Below are positions 7,194 to 20,458 of a DNA stretch of 20,458 nucleotides, one piece after another. The notes below the pieces were generated by a model that saw nothing but the letters and a program-made list of their open reading frames with translations, did not search any database and had not been told where the DNA came from. Every line of letters starts with the position of its first letter. Position 1 is the first letter of the stretch. The DNA is from a virus, in IMG/VR virus record IMGVR_UViG_3300021963_000810, positions 1-20,458 of that record. One strand, written 5' to 3'. The translations under genes and the position numbers were made by a program.

Positions 7194-7234
7194 TACGAAT
7201 TACAGAGTTTCAGGTGGTTTGGTATCTAGAAAGC

Positions 7235-7263
7235 ATTATAGCACGCTTCCAGGCGATTGTGAA
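7235..7263 (-). promoter_or_regulatory. Sigma70-type promoter for the helicase, embedded in a stem-loop
   Basis: Minus strand: -35 TTCACA (7258-7263, five of six), 17-bp spacer, -10 TATAAT (7235-7240, perfect). Expected start near 7228, about 35 nt before the ATG at 7193. The -35 spans stem and loop of the hairpin 7240-7270, and the first base of the -10 is the last base of its stem. Confidence 0.75.
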
Positions 7264-7270
7264 GCGTGCT
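7240..7270 (-). terminator. 10-bp perfect stem-loop overlapping the promoter
   Basis: AGCACGCTTC (7240-7249) pairs with GAAGCGTGCT (7261-7270) around an 11-nt loop. It starts 12 nt after the stop of gene 7283-7438, so it may end that transcript, while the same DNA carries the next promoter. This matches the layout of promoter/early stem-loop (PeSL) cassettes described in T4-type phages. There is no U-tract. Confidence 0.65.
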
Positions 7271-7282
7271 GGTGGGGTTTAA

Positions 7283-7438
7283 TCAACCCCCGAACATTTC
7301 ATCAAACAACCAATCACCAGAACGCTCTTTTTCTTCCCAGACTTTGTTAGCGTTTGCTTCAATCATTGCCCGTTCGATCTTAGCATCAATGGGAGATTGA
7401 GTGCTAAACCAGTTGCCATTACGATCTTGCCAGAGCAT
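7283..7438 (-). CDS. Small hypothetical protein (51 aa)
   Basis: ATG at 7438 lies 21 nt after element copy 6. The protein starts MLWQDRNGNWFSTQSPIDAK, has a helical middle (IERAMIEANANKVWEEKERS), and ends GDWLFDEMFGG. The gap to the element holds AGGAACG, a weak ribosome site far from the ATG. Followed by the stem-loop/promoter at 7235-7270. Unknown function. Confidence 0.68.
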   Translation of the reverse strand: MLWQDRNGNWFSTQSPIDAKIERAMIEANANKVWEEKERSGDWLFDEMFGG

Positions 7439-11300: not shown

Positions 11301-11333
11301 ACTATAGGTCCACTTTGGAGGTGAGTAACTTTA
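11301..11333 (-). repeat. Conserved intergenic element, copy 8 of 8
   Basis: A 33-bp copy identical to copies 2 and 4, the one furthest upstream in the transcription direction. TATAGT is followed by GTAAGCA, as in copy 7, and the ATG is 17 nt away. No further copy is seen between 11334 and 20458. Confidence 0.9.
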
Positions 11334-11345
11334 ATTAAGAGAAAA

Positions 11346-11510
11346 TCAGCCTCCTTTTTCTCTCAAGCTACGCACAAGATACTCCGTAAATTGCTCCATC
11401 TTCTCAGGAACTACAGCAGCGGGACGTTGATTGATTACATTTTTAAGTGCAGTCATCTCTCTGAACTCTTCATCTGTCAGGTTTGTGTTTCCTTTTGAAG
11501 GAAGGGTCAT
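11346..11510 (-). CDS. Small conserved hypothetical protein (54 aa)
   Basis: Starts MTLPSKGNTNLTDEEFREMT, then ALKNVINQRPAAVVPEKMEQ and a helical C-terminus ending in LREKGG. I recall close relatives in T4-like cyanophages; function unknown. The gap to the upstream gene (11511-11599) holds a short palindrome GATATG-TTAG-CATATC at 11532-11547 and little else. Confidence 0.78.
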   Translation of the reverse strand: MTLPSKGNTNLTDEEFREMTALKNVINQRPAAVVPEKMEQFTEYLVRSLREKGG

Positions 11511-13833: not shown

Positions 13834-13972
13834 TATTCAATACTTCAATAGATTGCTTAATTGCTCTAATAAAGTCATCTTCGGTCCAGGTGTTGAGAAT
13901 ACTTTCCGTAGGAGAATTCTCATCCCAGGAGATAGTGAACGATCCGTTTTCATTTTCAGTTACCTCTATCAT
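13823..13972 (-). CDS. Small conserved hypothetical protein (49 aa)
   Basis: MIEVTENENGSFTISWDENS followed by PTESILNTWTEDDFIRAIKQ: a short beta hairpin plus helix, acidic. Recalled from many T4-like cyanophages without function. ATGA overlap with the end of the glycosyltransferase-sulfotransferase gene. Confidence 0.78.
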   Translation of the reverse strand: MIEVTENENGSFTISWDENSPTESILNTWTEDDFIRAIKQSIEVLNNDG

Positions 13973-15516
13973 TTTAGTTCATTTAAAGTTTCTAATTCAT
14001 CATACAAGTTTAAGGTTTCTTGAGAAAGTAAAACACTTTCTCGTTTAGACCGAATATGATCCTTAATAACAAGGTTGTCTAGATTTTCATCATAGATTTT
14101 TAATCCAAATTTGTCAACTAGAAGTGGTTTAATTTTATTTGGATTTTGAGTTAGATTATTTGAGTTAATTACCAAACACCTATCTCTGTTTTTCTTTGCG
14201 AAATTTACAATGTTTTGATTGTGATCTCTCCAACATTGTTCAATGTATTCTGGATTTTCTTGAAACAATTGAATTCCTTTTAACTTCAGCACAGAATTAT
14301 AAACTTCTGCTGGATGCCTATAAACAAAAATGTATTTTGCGTGTGGAATAATTGGATCCCAAAAATCAAGCAGAAGACAAGTTCTTGGATCTTTCCACCC
14401 CCACAATCTTAATTTTCTTTTATCGTAAATAACTTTCTTCGCACACTCCTCAAATTCTTTTACCTTTTCAAAGTTCATCGTCAAATCTGATGACCAACCC
14501 CAATCTGGAAATGAGTTTTCAGATTCAGTTGAAATCTGACAGATCATCCTATCAAGATGCAGAAAGTCTTCACTTTCATAGTATCCTTCTGGATTATGAA
14601 TATCAGAAGATAGTATACTATTTCCCATAAAAATCCCAAGTTCATTCAACATACTTGAAGTAAGTGATGTGAAGGAACGATGCATACCAGTTAATACAAT
14701 TGGTTGAGATTTTTCAAAGTTTACACTTTCATAAACATCATTTGCTATTTTGTGCAAAAATACTATGAGATTATGATTTTTGTTTGCTATTACTTTTAGA
14801 TCTTCTTTCTTTCTTTCAAGTGAGTTGCATACTGATAGATAGCAGTCTCTACGGGAATCTAAAACCCCATCCGACAAAGAATGACAGTTATCGTCTCTAC
14901 GATAGAAATACAATGGTAGAGGAATGTAACCTATGTTTTGATGGTCTCCTATTTCTGATATTCGGAGAGATAAATCATAATCTCCACCATACTTAAATGT
15001 ATCATCAAAACCATTCACAGTATCATAAATTTCTTTTCTTATCACGCGAAGGTGAAAAGTCATAAAACTATATCTTATATTTTCTGGGGTGTATGGTTTT
15101 GATTGTTTTTCGCACAGTTGAAGGTGATTTCCATTCTCATCAACTTCAATACAATCAGTATAGACCATCCAATATTCTGGATGAGAATTTAAAACTCCCT
15201 CACATACGCGAATAGCATCTGGATACAAATAATCATCGGCATCTAGTTGGCAGATGTTTTCTGTATCTACGTTTTTAAAAATTTCTTTATATGAGCCGTA
15301 GATTCCTAGATTTGTTTTACCTTCAATGAGTGTAAAATCTTCTTCAGATGAATTCAAATCTCTTAAGTAGTTGAGTGTGTCATTATCACAAGAATTTTCA
15401 CCATCTGTTCGAAGTATTACTTTTACTTCTGTAGTTTGGTTCAATGCACTTTCAACACATTGCTTCACATAATCATATGATTTCTTATATAAAGAAATTC
15501 CTATAGTAGTAGACAT
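13969..15516 (-). CDS. Glycosyltransferase (GT2) - sulfotransferase fusion (515 aa)
   Basis: Residues 1-240 form a GT-A family 2 glycosyltransferase: TIGISLYKKSYDYVKQCVES start, RTDGENS (36-42), QLDADDYLYP with the nucleotide-sugar/metal-binding DAD at 92-94, and GGDYDLSLR (177-185) at the catalytic-base position. Residues 272-470 look like a PAPS-dependent sulfotransferase: VLTGMHRSFTSLTSSML (274-290, 5'-phosphosulfate loop), GWKDPRT (373-379) and YRHPAEVYNSVLK (399-411, 3'-phosphate-binding Arg/Ser). Together they would add a sugar and a sulfate to one acceptor, perhaps a host or virion surface glycan; the acceptor is unknown. The gene looks more A+T-rich than its neighbours and is by far the largest here, suggesting recent acquisition. 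Ends in ATGA overlap with gene 13823-13972. Confidence 0.85.
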   Translation of the reverse strand: MSTTIGISLYKKSYDYVKQCVESALNQTTEVKVILRTDGENSCDNDTLNYLRDLNSSEEDFTLIEGKTNLGIYGSYKEIFKNVDTENICQLDADDYLYPDAIRVCEGVLNSHPEYWMVYTDCIEVDENGNHLQLCEKQSKPYTPENIRYSFMTFHLRVIRKEIYDTVNGFDDTFKYGGDYDLSLRISEIGDHQNIGYIPLPLYFYRRDDNCHSLSDGVLDSRRDCYLSVCNSLERKKEDLKVIANKNHNLIVFLHKIANDVYESVNFEKSQPIVLTGMHRSFTSLTSSMLNELGIFMGNSILSSDIHNPEGYYESEDFLHLDRMICQISTESENSFPDWGWSSDLTMNFEKVKEFEECAKKVIYDKRKLRLWGWKDPRTCLLLDFWDPIIPHAKYIFVYRHPAEVYNSVLKLKGIQLFQENPEYIEQCWRDHNQNIVNFAKKNRDRCLVINSNNLTQNPNKIKPLLVDKFGLKIYDENLDNLVIKDHIRSKRESVLLSQETLNLYDELETLNELK

Positions 15517-17983: not shown

Positions 17984-18204
17984 AGGTTCTCCAATTCATC
18001 ACTCCAAGGATAATAATAATCTACCTCAATACTTTCTAAAAGTGTGCGGGCAAACATAATCTCACCATAATCAGAACCATCTTCAAAAATATCCCAACTA
18101 TGGTGTGGATATTCATAATCTGGATTTAGATTATAACAAGTTGGTTGTTGTGCGTAGTTTTTGAGAACTTTGAGAAGATGTGCGAATTTTTGTTCGTCAG
18201 TCAT
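17980..18204 (-). CDS. Hypothetical protein (74 aa)
   Basis: Start taken at ATG 18204 (MTDEQKFAHLLKVLKNYAQQ) rather than TTG at 18210; it overlaps the upstream stop by 8 nt. Followed by PHHSWDIFEDGSDYGEIMFA and an acidic end. Function unknown. Confidence 0.72.
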   Translation of the reverse strand: MTDEQKFAHLLKVLKNYAQQPTCYNLNPDYEYPHHSWDIFEDGSDYGEIMFARTLLESIEVDYYYPWSDELENL

Positions 18205-18499
18205 CACCAAACTCCTTTTTCAGTTTCTCATACTCTTTGCGTCGTCGTTCTTTTGCTTTGAGTTCTGCTGCTTTTTTCTTTTCCCGTTCTTTCATTCGTT
18301 TCGCATACTCTTTGTCGGTTTCGGGACGATGCTTGTAGAAATAATACTCTTGATAACCATCATATTGTTCGTATTCCATATCAATACCTTCCCAACCTTC
18401 ATCTAATGCAGATTGAAGTTTAGAAATAATATCTGCAAGAGAACCTTCAAATTCCCAATAAAATTGTTTAGTTTCTTTTACTTGAATACGGGCAGTCAT
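18197..18499 (-). CDS. Hypothetical protein with charged coiled-coil C-terminus (100 aa)
   Basis: The N-terminal part looks beta-rich and folded (QFYWEFEGSLADIISKLQSA, then LDEGWEGIDMEYEQYDG). Residues 60-97 are an almost continuous Lys/Glu/Arg helix (KRMKEREKKKAAELKAKERR). ATGA overlap with the gene above. Function unknown. Confidence 0.75.
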   Translation of the reverse strand: MTARIQVKETKQFYWEFEGSLADIISKLQSALDEGWEGIDMEYEQYDGYQEYYFYKHRPETDKEYAKRMKEREKKKAAELKAKERRRKEYEKLKKEFGDD

Positions 18500-18669
18500 A
18501 ATCTTACTTCTTGAAGTTTGGTAATCAATTCAGGCAACCAAAATTTATCAATAGTGAGGATGTACTCACTTTCAGCATCATTAGGTTCTCCTAACCACAC
18601 TTCAACCAAATTCTCTTTACTAACAATATGAAATGGATTTTCTTTGAATTTAGATTTGGTTTTAGTCAT
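18496..18669 (-). CDS. Small hypothetical protein (57 aa)
   Basis: MTKTKSKFKENPFHIVSKEN, then LVEVWLGEPNDAESEYILTI and a helical end (DKFWLPELITKLQEVRL). It lies 10 nt below the next gene upstream. Function unknown. Confidence 0.68.
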   Translation of the reverse strand: MTKTKSKFKENPFHIVSKENLVEVWLGEPNDAESEYILTIDKFWLPELITKLQEVRL

Positions 18670-18679
18670 TTTCAATACC

Positions 18680-18856
18680 TCAAAAACTAATAATAGGTTG
18701 GTCTAAACCAAAATTCACACTATCATAAGGAGCATACCAAAACTCTATATTACTTAGATAATACTCTTCATTCTCATAGTCGCAGATACAAACATCCATA
18801 TTCAGTTGGTCTTCGTTGAGTTGTTGAAGATGCTGTAGGAGTTCTTTGTAAGTCAT
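18680..18856 (-). CDS. Small hypothetical protein (58 aa)
   Basis: MTYKELLQHLQQLNEDQLNM, then DVCICDYENEEYYLSNIEFW and YAPYDSVNFG. I recall the pattern of a helix followed by a short beta unit (QLNMDVxI) from several phage proteins, unassigned. ATGA overlap with gene 18853-19062. Confidence 0.7.
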   Translation of the reverse strand: MTYKELLQHLQQLNEDQLNMDVCICDYENEEYYLSNIEFWYAPYDSVNFGLDQPIISF

Positions 18857-19062
18857 CGGTGTGAATTGATGTAATTAGGAATTTCAAGAATGCTGTATTC
18901 TCTTGCTAATCTATCATTCTCATAATCATAATAAGAAGGAAAGACAATACTGGGAACACAACCATCAATAATATCAGAAACTTGAAAGATTGCGTCATAC
19001 TTCTCCAGAAGTTCTTTGAAATCTTTTAGGAAATTTTGATGTAGTTGTTCCTTGTTATTCAT
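18853..19062 (-). CDS. Small hypothetical protein (69 aa)
   Basis: ATG 19062 (MNNKEQLHQNFLKDFKELLE) is chosen because the longer frame to 19110 would start inside the promoter/stem-loop at 19084-19123. First gene of the long run that reaches 13.5 kb or beyond. Contains SIVFPSYYDYENDRLAREYS. Function unknown. Confidence 0.72.
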   Translation of the reverse strand: MNNKEQLHQNFLKDFKELLEKYDAIFQVSDIIDGCVPSIVFPSYYDYENDRLAREYSILEIPNYINSHR

Positions 19063-19083
19063 CGGTTGGTTGCTTATGAGGAT

Positions 19084-19112
19084 ATTATACGACCAAACAC
19101 ACCCCACCACAA
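19084..19112 (-). promoter_or_regulatory. Sigma70-type promoter overlapping a stem-loop
   Basis: Minus strand: -35 TTGTGG (19107-19112, TTG conserved), 17-bp spacer, -10 TATAAT (19084-19089, perfect). Expected start near 19077, 15 nt before ATG 19062. The -35 covers the loop and first stem bases of the hairpin 19098-19123. Confidence 0.6.
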
Positions 19113-19123
19113 GGAGGAGTGTG
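19098..19123 (-). terminator. Stem-loop at end of gene 19132, fused to a promoter
   Basis: CACACTCCTCC pairs with GGTGGGGTGTG around a TTGT loop on the minus strand: nine standard pairs, one G-U and one U-U mismatch, then TTTGG. It starts 8 nt after the stop at 19132. With the -10 nine bases later it has the same design as the element at 7235-7270. Confidence 0.55.
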
Positions 19124-19131
19124 CCAGTTCT

Positions 19132-19692
19132 TCAAGTGTCCTTCTCATCAACCCAATAAAAACCAAGACAAGTTTTCATAAAGAAACGAACAATCATATT
19201 CGGTTTATCAGGCATATAATACTTGAAATATCTACGATTTCCATTCGTATAATAACCTTCGTGTTTGTTTCCCTGCTTGATTACAAAAGAGGGTTCCAAA
19301 GAACTACCAATCGCAACAAACTTGGAGGAATCAAGAGTAAGTGTTTGAATTTGAGGGAAAAATCCATTCTTCTTCGCATACTCAAAGTCCTGAATAATCC
19401 TATCAAACTTGTAGTCGTATGCGTTTTCAGTATATATTTTAGAATACTCAAATTGTCCCTTTGTTATTTTAATCAGTTTATCAATCTTCTCATCAAACTC
19501 TTGTTGAATTTCATCCAGAGTTTTTGGTTCTTCTTTACTCTCTTCTTCTTTTACCTGTTCAGCAGTAATCCATTCACTCCATTCTTTCCAAAATTGGTCG
19601 GCAATACATCCAGGAGGAAGTTGATTTTTATACCGATACTGAAAATCTGGACGGCACATCGGTCCATTATCAACAACTCTCATTTCAATCAT
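19132..19692 (-). CDS. Hypothetical protein (186 aa)
   Basis: ATG 19692 is chosen (MIEMRVVDNGPMCRPDFQYR) because it overlaps the stop of the small gene above in ATGA; the longer frame to 19707 is less likely. The N-terminus contains CRPDFQYRYK and PPGCIADQFWKEWSEW. A Glu/Lys-rich segment (VKEEESKEEPKTLDEIQQEF) links to a beta-rich C-terminus. No family recognised. Confidence 0.75.
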   Translation of the reverse strand: MIEMRVVDNGPMCRPDFQYRYKNQLPPGCIADQFWKEWSEWITAEQVKEEESKEEPKTLDEIQQEFDEKIDKLIKITKGQFEYSKIYTENAYDYKFDRIIQDFEYAKKNGFFPQIQTLTLDSSKFVAIGSSLEPSFVIKQGNKHEGYYTNGNRRYFKYYMPDKPNMIVRFFMKTCLGFYWVDEKDT

Positions 19693-19790
19693 TGTGATAC
19701 TCTCCAAAGAAAAATAGAGACAGGAACCATAAAAACTGCTAATTGAGCCACATCAATCCAAGTTGTAGGGTCAGACACACATTCACTCAT
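19689..19790 (-). CDS. Very small membrane protein (33 aa)
   Basis: MSECVSDPTTWIDVAQLAVF then MVPVSIFLWRVSQ: one membrane helix after a polar N-terminus. Start overlaps the upstream stop by one base (TGATG) and its stop overlaps the next ATG (ATGA); this perfect fit between two genes is the main evidence. Function unknown. Confidence 0.62.
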   Translation of the reverse strand: MSECVSDPTTWIDVAQLAVFMVPVSIFLWRVSQ

Positions 19791-20011
19791 CAGTTTTCTC
19801 CACAATCACAATCAAAGTCAAGATACTCAATCACAGGTTTTCTCAAATAGTTACAAAGGTGCCACTGTGCTTCTTCAAATGTAGGATAATCACCATCCCT
19901 ATATTCATCTACAAATAGATTATACCAAAACAATCCAAATCTTTTGTGCTGTGGGTAGTATCTGGTTGAGTGTCCGTCTGTTACTTTTTTGATGCGGTAG
20001 TTTTTAGTCAT
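19790..20011 (-). CDS. Hypothetical protein (73 aa)
   Basis: MTKNYRIKKVTDGHSTRYYP, then QHKRFGLFWYNLFVDEYRDG and DYPTFEEAQWHLCNYLRKPV. The C-terminus DFDCDCGEN has two close cysteines. I recall similar proteins with FGLFWYN-like text in phages, unassigned. Overlaps upstream by 8 nt. Confidence 0.74.
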   Translation of the reverse strand: MTKNYRIKKVTDGHSTRYYPQHKRFGLFWYNLFVDEYRDGDYPTFEEAQWHLCNYLRKPVIEYLDFDCDCGEN

Positions 20012-20186
20012 AAGGAACCTGTGCGTCTTTGTGCCATACTCGGGTGAAAACTAACCAAGGTTCTTGTTGATGTGACATTTCTGCCATCCAGTGTTGTCCA
20101 TCCTCATCAATCGCATCCAGATAATGAATATGGGTCTTTGGGTCAATGGTTCTTGTGACCTGTGTGAATTTTATTTTTTCAACCAT
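20004..20186 (-). CDS. Hypothetical protein (60 aa)
   Basis: MVEKIKFTQVTRTIDPKTHI, then HYLDAIDEDGQHWMAEMSHQ: beta-rich, with four histidines. Start shares one base with the upstream stop (TAATG). Function unknown. Confidence 0.72.
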   Translation of the reverse strand: MVEKIKFTQVTRTIDPKTHIHYLDAIDEDGQHWMAEMSHQQEPWLVFTRVWHKDAQVPYD

Positions 20187-20431
20187 TAGAGTTCATCATC
20201 CTCCAATTCATTAGCAAGACGCAGTATAGCATCCTTCACCCAGTTTTGTCCTTTGATGAAATAATGTTTTTCCATACTCAACTCTTGGTCAGGGTCTGGT
20301 TCAATATTGAGACCTTCCACTGCTTCACGGAGAGCAGCAGCAACGGCAGAATTATCATAATAATATGGTCCTGGACCCAACTTACTATAATACTCATTCA
20401 TTACTTGTTGTGCTCTGTTTTTTGTACTCAT
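20186..20431 (-). CDS. Hypothetical protein (81 aa)
   Basis: ATG 20431 is preceded by GGGAGG four bases away and overlaps the upstream stop in ATGA, so it is preferred to ATG 20455. Contains MSTKNRAQQVMNEYYSKLGP, then SAVAAALREAVEGLNIEPDP and an acidic end (LANELEDDEL). Helical, unassigned. Confidence 0.75.
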   Translation of the reverse strand: MSTKNRAQQVMNEYYSKLGPGPYYYDNSAVAAALREAVEGLNIEPDPDQELSMEKHYFIKGQNWVKDAILRLANELEDDEL

Positions 20432-20458
20432 AGTGCCTCCCAGAAATCCTTCCATTCT
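20428..20458 (-). CDS. C-terminal end of an upstream gene (partial)
   Basis: The last nine codons of a gene entering from the right edge read EWKDFWEAL followed by TGA at 20430-20428. The ATGA overlap with the next start supports a real gene end. The product cannot be named. Confidence 0.55.
   Translation of the reverse strand, partial: EWKDFWEAL

Follow-up and report, generated by a model that had tools for sequence, protein, structure and literature searches.

The window (the whole stretch of DNA that was analyzed) is a virus record of 20,458 bases whose nearest named relatives are S-PM2 and S-SRM01, both Synechococcus phages. The records fetched for these relatives belong to the Kyanoviridae. 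The site of interest lies between two genes on the minus strand, and its features are given here in minus-strand order.

19132–19707, minus strand: upstream gene (ORF), 191 aa, function unknown; its TGA at 19134–19132 lies inside the box
19120–19140, minus strand: the box, in this copy GACACTTGAAGAACTGGCACA, spanning about -59 to -42 from the presumed start
19098–19123, minus strand: stem-loop CACACUCC-U-CC-UUGU-GG-U-GGGGUGUG, then UUUGG; would presumably terminate the upstream transcript
19107–19112, minus strand: TTGTGG, a proposed -35 in the loop and inner stem, 17 nt before TATAAT
19084–19089, minus strand: -10 element TATAAT, 30 nt past the box
19075–19079, minus strand: initiation-region motif TCATA, from the column profile and the 51-copy alignment
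18853–19062, minus strand: downstream gene, 69 aa, function unknown; ATG at 19062, 27 nt past the first -10 base

The first-pass annotation had proposed a hairpin at 19098–19123 behind the stop at 19132, and we found the stem, the stop and the TATAAT where it had placed them. The stem has 10 bp with one U·U mismatch and a UUGU loop, and its 3' end lies 8 nt ahead of TATAAT. On the minus strand, the bases between the stem-loop (19123–19098) and TATAAT (19089–19084) are UUUGGUCG. The RNA fold of 19084–19135(-) came to -20.2 kcal/mol with a z of -3.3, and 1 of 200 shuffles was equally stable. The U-tract behind the stem is only UUU, and a terminator scan of 18001–20458 found none. Rfam returned no matches to the feature, which rules out a known structured RNA as its identity. 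For the downstream gene, the ORF list gives a start at GTG 19110, within the hairpin; we consider ATG 19062 to be the likelier start.

The 191-aa upstream protein matched no PHROG families. It has a relative in S-SRM01 with 72% identity over residues 67–191. In the 35 loci with relatives of this gene, residues about 1–59 and 59–191 occur separately (loci L031, L032 and L035 versus L004–L030), so the protein resembles two modules fused together. Elsewhere in the window, a 515-aa protein at 13969–15516(-) also matched no PHROG families; it looks like a putative two-part protein, glycosyltransferase-type at the N-terminus and sulfotransferase-like at the C-terminus.

A conserved box with constant spacing to the -10

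The first sign of the cassette was a conserved string behind the stop codon in several contigs and in S-SRM01, among the 35 loci of upstream-gene relatives. An IMG/VR scan for the box gave at least 119 stretches, and with the loci from gene relatives we have at least 135 distinct copies, the window's included. In order, the cassette consists of GACACTTGA(A/C)GAACTGGCACA, a spacer of 29–30 nt, TATAAT, N4, TCATA and the start codon; in relaxed form the box is GACACTT-N4-AACTGGCACA. The window matches the box pattern with 0 mismatches, where 0.02 matches are expected. These copies are a non-random sample with many from related contigs, and one contig may recur in several loci. Only identical sequences were removed from the copy sets, and kinship was kept.

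Among the matches listed, 123 of the 132 copies with enough flank have an exact TATAAT 28–30 nt past the box. Three of the other nine are one mismatch off at 29 nt, and the remaining TATAAT-less box copies likely include chance matches. For the column profile we used 126 copies with at most one mismatch in the -10, representing 106 distinct cores among the matches listed. In both alignment and profile, the box columns are invariant or nearly so, and TATAAT and TCATA are conserved. A start codon lies 27–33 nt past the first -10 base in 115 of 126 copies, and the upstream stop is a TGA inside the box, as in the window, in 59 of 123 (both among the matches listed).

A second scan, in which CTGGCACA, TATAAT and TCATA were the sole fixed elements, gave at least 157 distinct copies that overlap in part with the first set. 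Among the matches listed, the spacing was 27 nt in 2 copies, 28 in 6, 29 in 99, 30 in 48 and 31 in 2, or 29–30 nt in 147 of 157; spacings of 20–40 nt were allowed in the earlier loci, and the new loci were fetched with a spacing of 28–31 nt.

The TTGTGG that had been annotated as a -35 turned out to be merely the hairpin sequence of this copy. There is no conserved -35 column among the copies, and we dropped the reading because the hexamer is not conserved between them. Matches to TTGACA within 2 mismatches, 15–19 nt before the -10, occur in 50 of 140 cores versus 144 of 700 shuffled ones, which is a mild excess. The conserved upstream element is the box at about -59 to -42, at a spacing of 29–30 nt, and not a -35.

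To follow the cassette through named genomes we used a sequence-only model built from 51 diverse copies, with a cut-off of E<=0.1. It matched five Kyanoviridae genomes (21 matches in S-SRM01, 9 in S-PM2, 10 in S-CRM01, 15 in B23 and 34 in ACG-2014f) and had no matches in the T4 genome. All 79 matches in S-SRM01, S-PM2, B23 and ACG-2014f are on one strand, while S-CRM01 has 6 on the plus strand and 4 on the minus. The only model match in the window is 19070–19142(-), with an E of 8e-16.

Between 26 and 60 kb of ACG-2014f (NC_026927), 29 of 31 matches lie 64–89 nt ahead of an annotated CDS start. These 31 matches fall within 34 kb, and their -10 is mostly TATACT directly after TGC. We take the ACG-2014f cassettes to be a marine form of this promoter that occurs at high density; a scan for this variant gave three stretches. 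A host origin of the box was rejected after one strict GTDB scan, which gave three matches, none of them cyanobacterial (MAGs of Spirochaetales, Paceibacterota and Roseburia).

The hairpin in the spacer

The first-pass annotation had argued from two sites in the window that a hairpin directly before a -10 is a common functional design rather than coincidence, and had suggested searching intergenic gaps for it. A stem of at least 8 bp ends 0–10 nt before TATAAT at 4 of the 25 sites in the window; all four are among the 17 on the minus strand (19089, 15842, 7240 and 3907), and none of the 8 plus-strand sites has one. Shuffling the window 60 times gave a mean of 1.17 such sites and a maximum of 5, so the two window examples could not on their own exclude coincidence. 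We did the genome-scale test on 40–90 kb of S-SRM01, which is 50 kb with 129 annotated CDS. There, such a stem precedes 12 of the 21 plus-strand TATAAT in intergenic gaps, versus a mean of 2.06 and a maximum of 6 in 100 shuffles of the same upstream sequences. The controls from the same region gave 4 of 25 for TATAAT inside genes, 5 of 36 for minus-strand TATAAT, and 0 of 7 when the intergenic gaps were read on the minus strand. The suggested search thus came out above chance and the recurring design was borne out, well above chance across cyanophage genomes. The hairpin–TATAAT design is real at genome scale.

The spacer commonly contains an inverted repeat, and the sequences of the arms vary widely from copy to copy. 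Of the 106 distinct cores among the matches listed, 66 were equalled in no more than 5% of their own shuffles, and 6 were equalled in half or more. Gapless stems of at least 8 bp were present in 47 of these 106 cores, versus 5.7% of shuffles. In the second set, again among the matches listed, 82 of 140 distinct cores had p<=0.05 compared with 20 of 300 control TATAAT without a box. When each hairpin family was represented by a single randomly drawn copy, only 6 of 20 had p<=0.05. That an inverted repeat simply happened to precede a -10-like hexamer would agree with the window taken alone, where 4 sites fall within the shuffled range. However, box, spacing and flanks are conserved in more than 100 copies and the hairpins are several-fold enriched over controls. 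We consider coincidence to be refuted by the S-SRM01 intergenic test, the number of model matches per genome and this enrichment, and give it next to no weight.

There are also copies that are poor in hairpin. In 40–90 kb of S-SRM01, 5 of 15 copies (with up to 5 box mismatches) are essentially unstructured, and 14 of 31 ACG-2014f copies fold more weakly than -11 kcal/mol. The hairpin is optional in the cassette. The box-to-(-10) spacing is unchanged in copies that have no hairpin or a hairpin of another length; the variances of spacing and hairpin length are 0.23 and 8.5, with a correlation of 0.00. Since the spacing is independent of hairpin length, it would be promoter geometry that sets the box and the -10, with the hairpin a guest in the spacer.

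This independence bears on whether the hairpin acts in DNA, either as an operator or as a cruciform whose extrusion would place TTGA(A/C)G of the box, 39–40 nt upstream of the -10, only about 17 bp away from it. TTGA(A/C)G does resemble a -35, subtracting the mean hairpin of 23.6 nt from 39–40 nt leaves about 16–17 nt, and the hairpins occupy precisely the -35 region. But the length-independent spacing, which hairpin-less copies keep, led us to reject a loop-out that moves a distant -35 into register, and arm sequences that differ so widely argue against an operator. We think that action in DNA is very improbable.

An arm-swap control gave a weak signal, as did a fixed-register covariation test. 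We attribute this to the hairpins having different registers and to the shared GGCA/TGCC. In many copies the GGCA of the box is able to pair with a TGCC just before the -10, as an outer helix or a spaced inverted repeat, and GGCA/TGCC may be a two-part binding site for a protein instead of an RNA element.

The other hairpin of the original comparison lies at a helicase gene.

7235–7270, minus strand: the other hairpin–TATAAT; the stem runs into or abuts the -10 at 7240, and there is no box

The fold of 7215–7295 has a z of -4.3. A box is absent (10 of 19 positions mismatch), and the cassette model has no match here at E<=10. For relatives of the helicase gene we kept 80 of 389 loci, and upstream sequence was listed from 47 of the 80, giving 42 distinct regions. 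Within these 80 of 389 loci, the hairpin–TATAAT is kept in 12 matches (7 distinct sequences, one with TATTAT). The arms covary between relatives, AGCACGCTT/AAGCGTGCT versus AGCACCCTT/AAGGGTGCT, with the compensatory change seen as GCACG/CGTGC and GCACC/GGTGC. Other helicase relatives in the 42 distinct regions have a different upstream sequence without a hairpin. The orthologous helicase of S-SRM01 (46% identity) has a hairpin–TATAAT upstream together with a partial box, GGACACTT. The claim that 7235–7270 and the site at 19,084 share one design therefore survives in part: the hairpin–TATAAT is structurally conserved, but the box is absent and the model does not match. We conclude that 7235–7270 is a related arrangement, the same idea in a different build, and not the same module.

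Many helicase relatives are preceded by variants of a second repeated promoter-like element, which is hairpin-less and reads AGTTACTCACCTCCAAAGTG-GACC-TATAGT (GATC-TATAAT in one copy). The window has 8 copies with 0–1 mismatches, all on the minus strand in its first 11.3 kb, starting at 11330, 8668, 7489, 4517, 3055, 2438, 1507 and 353. This element may mark another expression class.

Reuse of the cassette and its relation to PeSLs

We compared flanks by direct blastn links, with both flanks available for 117 of 126 copies among the matches listed. There are 29 pairs of copies among the matches listed that are identical from the hairpin through the -10. Neither flank is common in 19 of these pairs; the downstream flank alone is shared in 8, the upstream alone in 1 and both in 1. 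ACG-2014f has the same hairpin and -10 in three cassettes (38216, 38321 and 48804). Identical cassettes with differing flanks are the pattern that would be expected from dispersal or exchange of a cassette between unrelated genes.

Promoter early stem-loops (PeSLs) of T4-like phages are dispersed between variable genes and are implicated in module shuffling. They are said, in work by Arbiol from 2010 and Comeau from 2014, to be composite terminator/promoter sequences found in T4 and KVP40-type pairs. The cyanophage cassette resembles them in placing a hairpin (whose role in termination would be analogous) and a -10 within the short intergenic space between stop and start codons. It also resembles them in its multiple dispersed copies, 9–34 model matches per genome in the five cyanophages, and in the way the same cassette is found between different genes (the 19 of 29 identical pairs, among the matches listed, without a common flank). 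Unlike the T4 PeSLs, it has no T4 early-promoter consensus, no conserved -35 and no model matches in T4; what it does have is a box specific to cyanophages, at constant spacing from the -10, and its hairpin lies between the two. A stretch of T4 that we inspected to see whether the stem-loop or the early promoter comes first showed nothing clear. Compared with a sigma-70 promoter, the cassette has a conserved TATAAT -10 and TCATA but not the -35 hexamer 15–19 nt before the -10. We regard the cassette as a cyanophage variant of the known PeSL-type regulatory cassette, differing in box and geometry.

Parts of this arrangement have been seen before. In the portions of Puxty et al. 2015 (PMC4503421) that we covered, S-PM2 was examined for PeSLs and is given a potential stem loop at 11369–11391 and a host-like early promoter, and PeSL density is said to be much higher in other T4-like phages than in S-PM2. 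That stem loop falls inside our cassette copy at 11349–11419; the same portions list single elements for S-PM2, with no description of a box or of a composite. Again in the portions covered, Sullivan et al. 2010 (PMC3037559) predicted sigma-70 promoters and terminators separately. As far as the literature covered here goes, host-like sigma-70 promoters are the sole account given of early transcription in T4-like cyanophages, and within that mostly open-access coverage we found no published description of the box or the composite in cyanophages.

Support for a terminator function comes from S-CRM01 (NC_015569). Of the 7 plus-strand terminator features that we inspected in its 134–178 kb, 3 (137087, 146122 and 150748) are Rho-independent terminators annotated directly behind the box. 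They are placed as in the window, but are annotated as terminators only, and these sites have a variant -10 (e.g. TATAGT) rather than TATAAT. This annotation favors reading the hairpin as a terminator. Weighing against termination, a T-run of at least 4 follows the hairpin in only 23 of 78 copies and of at least 3 in 36 of 78, among the matches listed; the window's copy has the stable stem of a Rho-independent terminator (z -3.3) but only UUU behind it. The hairpin could instead be a stabilizer or processing site at the 3' end of the upstream gene's mRNA, next to an independent promoter, and the many copies that have no U-tract would suit this. We believe that this is unlikely, given that a substantial subset does have a classical U-tract and that three such sites in S-CRM01 are annotated as Rho-independent terminators.

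Our preferred reading, which we consider probable, is that the feature is a composite terminator and early-promoter cassette, the cyanophage counterpart of the T4 PeSLs. Its promoter part is well supported as a prediction, on the basis of conservation and position. We infer from the sequence that transcription starts at the cassette, that this happens early, and that the hairpin terminates; the box would be read by a factor or by the alpha subunit of RNA polymerase. A dispersed cassette would in this way end one transcription unit and start the next within about 75 bp. In this model the upstream message would carry the hairpin at its 3' end, and the most likely role of the hairpin is to terminate or trim that message or to fix its 3' end. 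Right behind it, TATAAT and the TCATA start region, aided by the box, would launch a downstream transcript with a short leader. Each small group of genes would thereby have its own start and stop.

A bolder and more tentative form of this, which we hold to be possible but somewhat short of even, is a promoter class private to the Kyanoviridae. Such promoters would have no -35, a -10 with a fixed TCATA, an obligatory box (GACACTT-N4-AACTGGCACA) at -59 to -42 that a phage or host factor reads, and an optional terminator in the spacer that insulates neighboring genes, and the 75-bp unit would be an exchange point for the shuffling of small early genes.

A cassette this dense and recognizable would allow early transcription units and terminators to be annotated straight from sequence, and the box gives a concrete target for finding the factor that binds it. 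It would also bring cyanophages under the PeSL concept, in which phage genomes are reshuffled along joints formed by small regulatory cassettes.
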